Under the pieces are notes generated by a model. The model had not been told where the DNA came from, searched no databases, and saw nothing but the letters and a program-made list of their open reading frames with translations. From positions 1 to 23,064 of the IMG/VR virus record IMGVR_UViG_3300028146_000037: a DNA stretch of 23,064 bases. One strand, 5' to 3'. The translations under genes and the position numbers were made by a program. This document shows positions 7,763 to 20,135 of the stretch, piece by piece. Position 1 is the stretch's first letter; each line of letters starts with the position of its first letter. Origin of the DNA: a virus.

Positions 7763-8512
7763 CTATAGCCACGCGGTGTCAAAGAATTGGTCGTCGGCAC
7801 TCATTGTGTCAAGCATCGTGACGGAATCGGGGGCAAACCAAGGCACATCCTCACCGTTGACGCTGACCGAAAGCTGCCCAAGGGAGGTCACGGCCAAGGG
7901 TTGAATAATGTTGTCGGGGCGAAGTCCCTGGATCATCGGGCCGGTAGCCGAGGTGCCGCTGGCTCCTTGAGCTAGAGTCAGAGCCGCCAGCGTGGTCTGC
8001 GTTGCGAAGTCTTTAGCCGTGAGGGTAGCCAGATTGCCGCCAGTCTCAAGAGCAAAGCCGCTGATAACATTGGTGGTTACGCTGCCACTGATCGGCACCG
8101 GCGTTGCTCGCAGCTGAGTATCAGTCAAGCCACCCGTCGTGACCGTGCCGCTAACTGGCACAGGCGTAGCTCTTAGCTGGGTGTCGGTTAGCCCTCCGGT
8201 TGTCACTGACCCGCTGACAGGAACCGGCGTGGCTCTCAACTGTGTGTCCGTCAGTGGCCCGGATGCCGTCACCGTGCCCGATACCGGTACTGGTGTGGCC
8301 CGTAGCTGTGTGTCCGTTAATCCACCAGTTGTAGCAGTTACCGTGCCGCTGACCGGAACAGGTGTCGCGCGGAGTTGAGTGTCGGTGAGACCGCCGGTGG
8401 TTGCTGTGACAGTACCGGAGATCGGCACCGGGGTAGCCCGGAGCTGGGCATCTGTCAGCCCGCCGCCGCCGACTGCCCCGCTAGGTGGTAAAGTTGACCG
8501 GTTGCTAGACAT
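7763..8512 (-). CDS. Virion protein with six LTDTQLRATPVPVSGTV repeats
   Basis: 249 residues from ATG at 8512 (GGTGAG upstream). Residues 19-147 are six tandem units of 21-23 residues with core LTDTQLRATPVPVSGTVT, separated by ATTGG, ASGP or TGG linkers. After the repeats comes a non-repeated domain (FALETGGNLATLTAKDFATQ to the end), closing DSVTMLDTMSADDQFFDTAWL. The repeat core is one I recall from many phage virion proteins, usually annotated hypothetical or tail protein; it probably forms a shaft of short strands joined by Pro-containing turns. DNA copies differ widely at synonymous positions. A fibre, stalk or head-surface role is inferred. The gene follows a hypothetical protein by 3 bp and precedes the 227-residue gene by 9 bp. 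Confidence 0.68.
   Translation of the reverse strand: MSSNRSTLPPSGAVGGGGLTDAQLRATPVPISGTVTATTGGLTDTQLRATPVPVSGTVTATTGGLTDTQLRATPVPVSGTVTASGPLTDTQLRATPVPVSGSVTTGGLTDTQLRATPVPVSGTVTTGGLTDTQLRATPVPISGSVTTNVISGFALETGGNLATLTAKDFATQTTLAALTLAQGASGTSATGPMIQGLRPDNIIQPLAVTSLGQLSVSVNGEDVPWFAPDSVTMLDTMSADDQFFDTAWL
8072..8458 (-). repeat. Six-unit tandem coding repeat, 63-69 bp per unit
   Basis: Six in-frame tandem units encode LT(D)(A/T)QLRATPVP(V/I)SG(T/S)V and lie within the virion protein gene. Unit lengths are 69, 69, 66, 63, 63 bp and a final partial unit. Amino-acid identity between units is very high, while third codon positions vary freely. The array is therefore old or selected to stay divergent at DNA level. 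Confidence 0.85.
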
Positions 8513-12386: not shown

Positions 12387-12414
12387 TTGACACTGAATAC
12401 GAATATGATAATAT
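12387..12414 (+). promoter_or_regulatory. Strong sigma70-type promoter for the early genes
   Basis: Consensus TTGACA (12387-12392), a 16-bp spacer and TAATAT (12409-12414). An ATG occurs 9 bp downstream at 12424, and a second with an excellent ribosome site at 12448. It opens the run of small plus-strand genes. Confidence 0.6.
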
Positions 12415-15163: not shown

Positions 15164-15419
15164 TACCGGCTATCCAATGGCTACCTCAGCCGTCCCCCGG
15201 CGAGTGGTCGTGCTGCGCGGAAGGTGGCGCGCCAAGCGTCAGAATTGCCCTGAGACGAATCGGGGGTCTGATAGTACGGACCAAGGGCTAAAAACCGCAC
15301 AGGAGCCAACAGGCTTTCACGGCGATGTATCAGGCTCACCGTCTGAGACTATCAACTACGATCATTACGGCGCGGTGATGGCTGAGCGTCGGCGGCGAGA
15401 GGCGGGAGGGGGCGAATGA
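15144..15419 (+). CDS. Hypothetical early protein, 91 aa
   Basis: 91 residues from ATG at 15144 (a GTG lies one codon earlier). Basic N-terminal half (AVPRRVVVLRGRWRAKRQNC), low-complexity centre, and a C-terminus MAERRRREAGGGE that contains the usual ribosome-site-like codons for a following gene. Composition is less protein-like than its neighbours, so it may be a fast-evolving or decaying gene. It ends just before the leader promoter. Confidence 0.42.
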   Translation: MATIWDDTGYPMATSAVPRRVVVLRGRWRAKRQNCPETNRGSDSTDQGLKTAQEPTGFHGDVSGSPSETINYDHYGAVMAERRRREAGGGE

Positions 15420-15438
15420 GCGGCCAGCAAGATTCTCG

Positions 15439-15467
15439 TTGAACCTATCGCCCGGCTGTGCTAGTAT
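15439..15467 (+). promoter_or_regulatory. Extended -10 promoter upstream of the structured leader
   Basis: TTGAAC (15439-15444), exactly 17 bp, then TAGTAT (15462-15467) preceded by TGC, a complete extended -10 element. Predicted transcription start is near 15474, about 190 nt before the ATPase start codon. Confidence 0.62.
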
Positions 15468-15473
15468 CAGCGC

Positions 15474-15664
15474 GACTCAGTTATAGCGGGTCAGTCAAGC
15501 GGGACAATTTATTGAAGGTTGCAGCGGCTACCACGAAGGCTGACGCAGCCGTGTACTGAAGCGAAGCCTCTCGGTGAGGTTGTTCACGGTTGTTTTTTCG
15601 CGCTTGTCGCGTCGGAATATTCGTGGGCAATCGGGACAACCTCACCTAGGGGCTTTTGCTTTCT
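15474..15664 (+). ncRNA. Structured non-coding leader / possible attenuator RNA
   Basis: No credible reading frame fills this stretch. It contains competing stems: CGGCT (15525-15529) with AGCCG (15547-15551); GGCT (15538-15541) with AGCC (15547-15550); and the terminator stem 15546-15553/15585-15592. Both upstream alternatives would capture the 5' arm of the terminator. Further on, GGTGAGGTTGT (15573-15583) pairs perfectly with ACAACCTCACC (15636-15646). This is the layout of an attenuator upstream of the replication ATPase, or of a roughly 125-nt independent small RNA ending at the T-run. Confidence 0.5.
15546..15598 (+). terminator. Intrinsic terminator within the leader
   Basis: CAGCCGTG (15546-15553) pairs with CACGGTTG (15585-15592) over 8 bp with one G.U. 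Inside is a second hairpin, AGCCTC/GAGGTT around TCGGT (15565-15581). The outer stem is followed at once by TTTTTT (15593-15598). Confidence 0.62.
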
Positions 15665-16669
15665 ATGCCACCACGTATTCTGACGCTGACGCAGCTGAGA
15701 AGCCTTCCGCCTCCTTCGCTTCTTGATGGTACTCATTTGGTTTCGCGCGGCTTAAACATCATCTTTGGCCCGAGCGGTATGTATAAGAGCTTCTACACGC
15801 TGCACCAGGCGTTGATGATTGCTCGTACGCTGCCGGTCGTCTACGTTGCCGCTGAAGGGTCATCAGGCTTTATGAAGCGTATTGATGCCTGGTGTGAGTA
15901 TCACAAGCTGCCGCTGCCTGATGAGCACTTATGGTTCATTCCCGAAGAGGTAAACCTGCTGGACTCGAAAGCGATGATCGAAACAACAAAGGCGATTCAG
16001 GCTAAGACCAGACAAGCAGCCCTCGTGGTGCTCGATACCTATGCCCGCTGTCTGCTTGGTGGTGATGAGAATGCCGCAAAGGATACCGGCATAGCGATTC
16101 ACCAGTGCGCTATGGTTCAGCGAGCATTAGGCGGCGCGGTTGCGCTGATTCACCACACCAACAAGGCCGGCGCAAGCGAGCGTGGCTCTGGAGCGCTACG
16201 CGGTGGCGCGGACCTGATGATTGAGATGAACGCGGATGACGAAGGGCTGATTCAGGTCAAGTGCTCAAAGGTAAAAGACGATGCTGCGTGGCCTCAGGAG
16301 TTCTATCGCTTTTACCCGGTTGGCACATCGGGCGTGCTTGAACCATGTGACGAAAGCTCGCTCGCCTTTATCACCGATCCGCTATCTGAACGCCAGCTGG
16401 AAATACTCAAGTTTCTGGCCCTGCCGGTCTTCACCGAAGCTGGCGCAAGAGCTATTCAGATAGAAAAGGCGCTTAACTTGCCTCATAAGAGCACTTTCCG
16501 CCTGCTAAGTTCACTTAAAGAACGAAGTGTCATCAGTCAAGGAAAATCAGGCGATCCGTATCGCATAAGTGACACTGGTTTATTCGAGCTGGAGTGTCAT
16601 CGCAAGGGAAAAGTGACACAGCGGGTAAATGGTTCAGCAAGCGTGACTACATCGGAAACAGTGTCATAG
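15665..16669 (+). CDS. AAA_25/RepA-like replicative helicase ATPase
   Basis: 334 residues from ATG at 15665; TTG at 15656 is too close to the AGGGG site. RecA-fold core: Walker A GPSGMYKS at residues 35-42, Walker B ALVVLDTY around 119-126, then a sensor HHTNKAGASERGSGALRGGA from 163. The 'HHt.k....RGSgaL.ggaD' signature is that of AAA_25/RepA-type hexameric helicases and KaiC-like phage ATPases. The C-terminal 90 residues resemble a winged helix (LPVFTEAGARAIQIEKALNL then PHKSTFRLLSSLKERSVISQ). It probably unwinds or remodels DNA at a replication start. Tyr replaces the last Gly of the P-loop, as I recall is common in this subgroup. The 3' end of the gene carries several GTGTCA motifs. Confidence 0.78.
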   Translation: MPPRILTLTQLRSLPPPSLLDGTHLVSRGLNIIFGPSGMYKSFYTLHQALMIARTLPVVYVAAEGSSGFMKRIDAWCEYHKLPLPDEHLWFIPEEVNLLDSKAMIETTKAIQAKTRQAALVVLDTYARCLLGGDENAAKDTGIAIHQCAMVQRALGGAVALIHHTNKAGASERGSGALRGGADLMIEMNADDEGLIQVKCSKVKDDAAWPQEFYRFYPVGTSGVLEPCDESSLAFITDPLSERQLEILKFLALPVFTEAGARAIQIEKALNLPHKSTFRLLSSLKERSVISQGKSGDPYRISDTGLFELECHRKGKVTQRVNGSASVTTSETVS

Positions 16670-16769
16670 TGTCAGAGCAGTGTCACGGTGTATTTGACAC
16701 TTGGGTTATGGGCAGTGTCACACAGTGTCACACTCCTTAGGAGTGACACTGTGACACCAACCCTGACAC
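16527..16769. repeat. Cluster of 13 GTGTCA/TGACAC motifs, candidate origin or operator array
   Basis: GTGTCA begins at 16527, 16594, 16661, 16669, 16680, 16715 and 16725; its complement TGACAC begins at 16570, 16614, 16695, 16744, 16752 and 16764. Most copies extend to AGTGTCA(C/T). The cluster starts in the 3' end of the helicase gene and fills the 115-bp gap after it. A 14-bp imperfect hairpin (16721-16753, TTA loop, 2-nt bulge) lies inside and is not followed by a T-run. Confidence 0.7.
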
Positions 16770-17259: not shown

Positions 17260-17289
17260 TTGACACCACCACCACCACCAGCGTATGAT
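17260..17289 (+). promoter_or_regulatory. Near-consensus sigma70 promoter with (CCA)n spacer
   Basis: Perfect TTGACA (17260-17265), an 18-bp spacer made largely of CCA repeats, and TATGAT (17284-17289). The next ATG is at 17300, only 10 bp after the -10, so the first transcript would have almost no leader. Confidence 0.65.
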
Positions 17290-17422: not shown

Positions 17423-17430
17423 GGAGCATA

Positions 17431-18804: not shown

Positions 18805-19590
18805 ATGCCGATAGCTAAATGGCGATGTCCCAACTGTCTATTACCGCAGGAGCTTGACCACTTTGCGGCCACGCCCTGCGGTAATAGTGTGCACCCGGAT
18901 TATGCTGCTGCTGTCTTAGCAGATGATCGCGGCAAGGATCGCGCTGGTAAGATTGGTGTGACCGATGGGCTGAGCTGCCCGCGTCGCAAGATAATCAGCG
19001 ACACCGAGCAGCTGACCATTGATCCACTGGCCGCCAACAGCCCGCTCACCGGCACCGCTTGGAACGAGAAGCTTGACGCGCATAGCGACTCGCCTGAGCA
19101 GTGCCAGGTTGAAGTGGCTGGCACGATCCTCGGCCTGACCATCGTTGGCCACATTGACCGCGTGCGATTCGTTGGCGGCGACACGGTGATTGACGATCAC
19201 AAACACCAAAACGATTGGTCATTCAAATACACCGCTAAAGGTGAAATCAAGCCCGAGCACGATTGTCAGGTGTCCATTTACGCGGAGCTGTACCGCCAAA
19301 CGTTTGGCCAAGAGGCCGCCTATGCGATGATCTGGACGCACGCTACGGCTGGTGGCTTTGTTGCCCGCCGCGTCGAGCTGTGGCCGCTGGAGCGATGCCT
19401 GAGCTTCAAACCGCACGGCGGCGAGTTCTGCGTGGCTGATCTCTGGCTGCAAGTCGCTGGCGGACTGGCGGGCGATTGGCACAACCTGCCGCTCGCTGGT
19501 GAAGCAATGAGCTTTGGTAGCAAGAGCATGTGCGACTATTGCAGCGTGCGAGAACTGTGCTGGACGACAGCACGCGGGGCAAGCTTTTAA
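18805..19590 (+). CDS. Cas4-like PD-(D/E)XK exonuclease with Fe-S signature
   Basis: 261 residues from ATG at 18805 (AAGGT upstream). Catalytic motifs of the RecB/Cas4 superfamily are visible: GHIDRVRF (Asp 118), VIDDHKH (Asp 131, Lys 133) and QVSIYAELY (Gln 155, Tyr 159). Cys 58 (SCPRRK) together with Cys 243, 246 and 252 (CDYCSVRELC) forms the four-Cys iron-sulphur pattern of Cas4/AddB-type enzymes. An extra N-terminal ribbon-like site is present: CPNC at 8-11, Cys 25 and His 30. It should degrade DNA ends with polarity to give single strands for the Sak4-like recombinase. No other CRISPR genes are nearby, so a phage recombination role is favoured. Confidence 0.8.
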   Translation: MPIAKWRCPNCLLPQELDHFAATPCGNSVHPDYAAAVLADDRGKDRAGKIGVTDGLSCPRRKIISDTEQLTIDPLAANSPLTGTAWNEKLDAHSDSPEQCQVEVAGTILGLTIVGHIDRVRFVGGDTVIDDHKHQNDWSFKYTAKGEIKPEHDCQVSIYAELYRQTFGQEAAYAMIWTHATAGGFVARRVELWPLERCLSFKPHGGEFCVADLWLQVAGGLAGDWHNLPLAGEAMSFGSKSMCDYCSVRELCWTTARGASF

Positions 19591-19613
19591 TCGTGGTAGG
19601 CAGATAGGTTGTT

Positions 19614-20135
19614 ATGAGCCGGAACGTAGTAACAACTGAAGCGGCGGGTCGCGGTGGCACACGCCACCGTCCGCCGCACCTACCCGCTGTGTTCATCATC
19701 GACACCCGCGAGCAGCGACCCTTTGCACTGGACGGCTATGAGACGCGACGGGCTACTCTCGGTGCTGGTGACTACTCACTTGCCGGATTCGAGCACTGTG
19801 TTGCCGTTGAGCGCAAGAGTCACGCGGATGCTTGGGGATGTGTGGCCGGTTCGCGCGAGCGGTTCGAGCGCTGCCTCGCGCGACTCGCCGCACTGGATCG
19901 CGCCGCCATCGTCATCGAGTGCAACCTGCGCGACTTCGCCGTGCGTCCGGCGCAGGTGCAGCGCGTCACGCCGGCAACCGCCGTGGGCAGCTTTGTGAGC
20001 TGGAGCGTGCAGTTCGGCATCCCGGTGTTCTGGTGCGACAACCGCCGCTACGCCGAGCGGATCACCGTGCGCTATTTGCTATCCTATCTTAAGCATCGAG
20101 GAGGACCAACCAATGGAGACTCGCACCTGGCATAG
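19614..20135 (+). CDS. ERCC4-domain nuclease
   Basis: 173 residues from ATG at 19614. The ERCC4/XPF nuclease core is clear: IIDTREQRPF at 28-37 (Asp 30, Arg 32, Glu 33), GAGDYSLAG at 50-58 (Asp 53), and VERKSHADAW at 65-74 with the ERK-xxx-D signature (Glu 66, Lys 68, Asp 72). RERFERCLARL follows as the usual helix. Such phage enzymes cut branched or flap DNA in a structure-specific way and here probably resolve intermediates made by the upstream recombination proteins. The first 23 residues are a poorly conserved extension; a helix-hairpin-helix domain is absent. Its last codons overlap the next gene by 23 bp. Confidence 0.85.
   Translation: MSRNVVTTEAAGRGGTRHRPPHLPAVFIIDTREQRPFALDGYETRRATLGAGDYSLAGFEHCVAVERKSHADAWGCVAGSRERFERCLARLAALDRAAIVIECNLRDFAVRPAQVQRVTPATAVGSFVSWSVQFGIPVFWCDNRRYAERITVRYLLSYLKHRGGPTNGDSHLA

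Follow-up and report, generated by a model that had tools for sequence, protein, structure and literature searches.

The question raised by this locus is whether the 245-nt gap (15420-15664) lying directly before a helicase ORF acts as a regulatory leader, and at which level such control would operate. The window, i.e. the whole stretch of DNA that was analysed, is a virus record of 23,064 bases from a tailed phage, in which terminase and capsid-like genes occupy the left strand and genes for replication and recombination run rightward. The ORF behind the gap was initially annotated as a replicative helicase, an assignment that was confirmed here as RepA-like (AAA_25) by its match to the Pfam profile PF13481 (E 1e-24), together with matches to PHROG primase/helicase families and conservation of the Walker A sequence GPSGMYKS and of other motifs. 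Many relatives of this helicase are part of longer proteins, in which 100-500 residues precede the helicase domain; here it is a stand-alone protein with its own leader upstream. Its Shine-Dalgarno (SD) sequence, AGGGG, is located at 15648-15652, i.e. 12 nt before the ATG, which is a long spacing. The features discussed below are collected in Table 1.

Table 1. Coordinates of the leader elements and of the helicase gene in the window.
Feature	Position	Strand	Description
Promoter-like site, extended -10	15439-15467	+	TTGAAC-17-TAGTAT, TGC before the -10
Predicted short RNA	15474-15598	+	About 125 nt; inferred from the promoter-like site and the terminator
Segment A	15496-15519	+	CAAGCGGGACAATTTATTGAAGGT; pairs with B, competes with the terminator
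Possible leader ORF, 15 codons	15512-15559	+	TTG...TGA, MKVAAATTKADAAVY; weak GGGA (15501-15504) upstream
Intrinsic-terminator-like hairpin and T6	15546-15598	+	8-bp stem, inner hairpin 15565-15570/15576-15581
Segment B	15559-15592	+	5' arm of the inverted repeat; loop and 3' arm of the terminator hairpin
Segment C	15630-15661	+	3' arm of the inverted repeat, complementary to B; holds the SD
RepA-like (AAA_25) replicative helicase gene	15665-16669	+	ATG at 15665, 334 aa

Several other features of the gene layout were recorded. Promoter-like sequences are found where the leftward structural and rightward early genes diverge (12387-12414, TTGACA-16-TAATAT with TG, 10/12) and, in a strong form, at 17260-17289 (TTGACA-18-TATGAT, 11/12), ahead of a Sak4-like gene at 17428. 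Behind the latter gene, genes for a PD-(D/E)XK (Cas4-like) nuclease and an ERCC4-type nuclease are adjacent (18805-20135). A minus-strand gene at 7763-8512 encodes a probable structural protein containing tandemly repeated units of about 17-20 residues (GLTDTQLRATPVPVSGTVT). No hexamer of the window is more strongly clustered than GTGTCA/TGACAC, with 9 copies within 120 nt; 13 of its 20 copies lie, in both orientations, in the 243 nt of 16527-16769, where the helicase gene ends and in the gap that follows, and this cluster may be a replication origin or a set of operators.

Segments B and C form the highest-scoring inverted repeat of the window, with a score reached in 2 of 1000 block-shuffled windows. 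Its ungapped core is a 22-nt inverted repeat (15564-15585/15634-15655), and in the predicted fold the stem, lengthened by G-U pairs and interrupted by small bulges, spans 15558-15595/15625-15662. The B-C duplex has an energy of -53.6 kcal/mol, and C is the best non-self partner of B on the plus strand within the window. A perfect 11-bp repeat had been pointed out in the initial annotation (GGTGAGGTTGT, 15573-15583, with ACAACCTCACC, 15636-15646); its coordinates are correct but its extent was under-described, the 11-bp match being the core of a 34/32-nt complement. In the predicted ensemble of the full leader the SD positions are 0-3% unpaired. Folding a segment that lacks B still leaves them mostly paired, so that freeing B may not be enough to expose the SD.

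Segment B belongs at the same time to a terminator-like hairpin, whose 8-bp stem pairs CAGCCGTG (15546-15553) with CACGGTTG (15585-15592) and is followed by T6 (15593-15598); stem, inner hairpin and T run are all present as first described. The hairpin thus shows the arrangement of an intrinsic terminator, a GC-rich stem placed directly before a U run, and is predicted to act as one. The T6 is the only six-T run on the plus strand of the window, and among the three such runs of both strands it is the only one immediately preceded by a stem. Considered alone and by fold energy, the terminator (about -18.9 kcal/mol) is ordinary and does not stand above chance, the fold of 15510-15600 having a z of -0.18; a pattern scan that allowed only loops of 3-8 did not list it. 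As B consists of the terminator's loop and 3' arm, the terminator fold and the B-C fold are mutually exclusive, and once C is transcribed B-C is favoured by a wide margin in the predicted fold, the terminator hairpin being dissolved.

Transcription of the leader could begin at the promoter-like site of Table 1, whose TTGAAC (15439-15444), 17-nt spacer, TAGTAT (15462-15467) and TGC had been reported earlier and proved correct on sequence check. It has 8 of 12 consensus matches plus TG and is the only site of this quality on either strand within 15350-15850. Sites with at least 8/12 plus TG number 5 in the window versus 2.4 +/- 1.4 in shuffles, and the site thus carries little weight alone; on its own it is weak and not above chance. 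A transcription start near 15474 is predicted from it.

In the minimum free energy fold of the short RNA predicted between this start and the T6, 15496-15519 (segment A) is paired with 15566-15592. The beginning of A, CAAGCGGGACAA, is identical at 11 of 12 positions to the beginning of C (over CAA[GT]CGGGACAA; direct repeat D2), the part of A that is similar to C being 15496-15510, and the A-B pairing is weaker than B-C. The A-B fold of the short RNA (-40.6) and its terminator fold (-38.3) are close in energy, and termination may thus be partial. Two upstream segments, CGGCT (15525-15529) and GGCT (15538-15541), had been proposed as competitors for the 5' arm of the terminator. These pairings of 4-5 bp do exist but are of minor importance, the competitor preferred by the fold being 15496-15519 with 15566-15592. 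Another direct repeat (D1, 15527-15551/15667-15691, 76%) might have mimicked the gene start, an idea that was rejected as the frames differ.

Our preferred explanation, to which we attach roughly even confidence, is a self-inhibiting leader RNA by which helicase synthesis is kept low. Transcription starting from about 15474, or arriving from upstream, would enter the leader and have two outcomes: a stop at the T6 (15598), which would yield the short RNA of about 125 nt, or read-through into the helicase gene, upon which the terminator hairpin would refold. In the read-through RNA, B and C would pair and bury the helicase SD, such that termination and SD burial would both hold helicase synthesis down. 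A short RNA with a free copy of B could also bind C of other transcripts in trans, in the manner of IsrK or P4 CI, and relief would require B to be occupied, e.g. by a ribosome on the leader ORF or by a protein. The attenuation or small RNA of about 125 nt suggested in the initial annotation fits this anatomy, but the switch was placed there in the short upstream stems, with the 11-bp match as a side point, whereas the solid element is the read-through hairpin. Because this statistically solid element is a long hairpin that buries the helicase SD, translation control is considered at least as likely as termination control. Regulation by this leader most likely takes place in the RNA. The complementarity, its rarity and the burial of the SD in the predicted fold are seen in this one sequence, while promoter use, termination, the short RNA, its action in trans and the relief signal are inferred. 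Counting against the explanation, the energy computed for pairing between the short RNA and its target reaches only the top 1% of shuffles (19/2000) and the top 1.7% of real segments.

Control by self-complementary RNA from one transcript operates on replication genes in P1/P7 and P4-like elements and on another gene in Gifsy-1. Plasmid rep genes, as in pT181 and pIP501, are attenuated by antisense RNA; a fold sequestering a terminator or SD in the leader of a replication gene is common to these plasmids and the present locus. In the plasmids the opposite strand encodes this antisense RNA, whereas here the opposite strand of the leader holds only weak promoter-like sites (8/12, without TG), and an antisense RNA from that strand was rejected for want of a convincing promoter. 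In Gifsy-1, the IsrK read-through RNA is translationally silent, the middle of IsrK pairing with about 30 nt downstream, and translation is restored when short IsrK is supplied in trans; CI RNA silences the P4 replication genes via premature termination, and P4 SeqA is considered by the authors as a structural homologue of IsrK (PMC4825925). The layout of isrK-orf45-anrP (Salmonella prophage Gifsy-1, RF01394) is the same as the one predicted here, a short RNA with a terminator followed by a complementary read-through target, and the predicted fold agrees with a short RNA and a silent, paired read-through form. Fold energies are comparable, with -85.66 kcal/mol for the 180 nt of the IsrK leader (PMC4825925) and -86.9 for 207 nt here. 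The locus differs from IsrK in that the SD itself lies within the paired region and its partner is taken from the loop and 3' arm of the terminator, in that the target gene is the helicase instead of orf45/anrP, and in the effect of the RNA in trans, which activates in IsrK whereas binding to C is here predicted to block. The C4/CI antisense RNA and SeqA (P1, P7, P4; RF01695) likewise rely on RNA-RNA pairing within the leader, upstream of replication or antirepressor genes. As in C4, an upstream and a downstream segment are both complementary to one central segment, and the mRNA that would be controlled has leader segments complementary to the putative RNA (B-C over 34/32 nt, A-B weaker); the P4 isrK-C4 duplex reaches -53.9 kcal/mol versus -53.6 for B-C. 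No second processed RNA is apparent here, unlike in C4/CI, and no sequence relation was found.

A true C4/IsrK-like action in trans, whereby a stable antisense short RNA would bind C on separate helicase transcripts and set replication on or off (e.g. for immunity or copy control), is considered as unlikely. The order of the parts is that of P4, i.e. short RNA and terminator, complementary read-through segment, then replication genes (PMC4825925), and A and C are each complementary to B. Against this, neither the C4 (RF01695) nor the isrK (RF01394) model of Rfam matched the locus at gathering score, or at E<=10 on 15380-15760, while the P4 leader used as control matched both (isrK 60.8 bits, C4 74.9 bits). 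By this covariance-model test the locus is not a member of either family, and it may, by analogy, work like them. An Rfam sX12 match (E 9.9, opposite strand) was attributed to chance. Moreover, pairing of B with C in cis would form faster, B is largely paired with A or inside the terminator in the short RNA, and the phage is without evidence of being temperate.

That the inverted repeat is fortuitous and the leader simply non-coding appears rather improbable. The full leader (207 nt) has a minimum free energy of -86.9 kcal/mol (z = -4.67), a stability reached by 0 of 2000 dinucleotide shuffles and by 37 of 6000 (0.6%) GC-matched real segments. The latter figure, which speaks for chance, is a rough guide only, since the segments, taken from other phage and plasmid loci and partly redundant, are likely in part functional themselves. 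The self-complementarity of the leader is real and non-random; the scarcity of the B-C score among block shuffles of the whole window also argues against chance, and placement over both SD and terminator is an additional argument.

Conservation, which could not be shown, leaves chance some room. Searches of IMG/VR, GTDB genomes, INPHARED phages and PLSDB plasmids yielded no close relative of the phage. Proteins searched in IMG/VR were the helicase, terminase, capsid, portal and Sak4; the helicase was also searched in genomes, the leader DNA in phages and plasmids, and the gapped B-C core in IMG/VR and genomes. Helicase identity reached about 38% at most among the relatives searched, and no homologous leader was found in IMG/VR, genomes, phages or plasmids. 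The gapped core gave 4 genome matches, which showed no further leader similarity on inspection, and the 3 of these genomes that were searched gave no helicase match. Two further matches, at L087 3194-3218 (22/25, within an open coding frame) and in a Shinella plasmid piece (E 0.2), were discarded as chance. At 7 loci with a distant helicase relative (about 30-37%) whose start is close to the domain, upstream inverted repeats scored at most 9 versus 17 here. The B-C feature is thus not general to the helicase family, as far as these sequences indicate, and relatives at about 30-37% are too distant to weigh strongly against the model of a self-inhibiting leader.

It is doubtful that the locus combines an ordinary terminator of the upstream operon with an inverted repeat acting at the DNA level (an origin element or protein-binding site), without any RNA switch. 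The locus does adjoin the helicase gene and lies about 0.9 kb from the GTGTCA cluster. However, one arm falls on the SD and the other on the terminator loop plus 3' arm, a placement that a DNA element would not require; the stem is lengthened by G-U pairs, and the leader is without the GTGTCA motif.

Leader-peptide attenuation, in which a ribosome translating the 15-codon ORF would mask the 5' arm of the terminator together with the half of B that pairs with the SD and so give antitermination and translation, is very unlikely: the stop codon falls at the edge of B, 4 nt past the terminator 5' arm, a geometry that would fit ermC- or trp-like coupling, but the ORF, which does overlap the right region, has a TTG start, a weak SD, and neither a stalling motif nor diagnostic codons, and ORFs so short are common by chance, as this one may be; the coupling is attractive but statistically weak. 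This reading and that of action in trans are elaborations of the self-inhibiting leader, and the confidences given here partly overlap.

At low confidence, we propose that the self-inhibiting leader is an independently evolved self-targeting leader of the IsrK/CI type, in a phage outside the groups that the known families cover, in which the terminator's loop together with its 3' arm would serve as the antisense that seals the helicase SD. If true, such a sequence-unrelated case, directed at a helicase SD, would suggest that such a design evolves repeatedly and that family models fail to detect it; a terminator arm that is also the anti-SD arm would offer a simple anatomical signature for searching.
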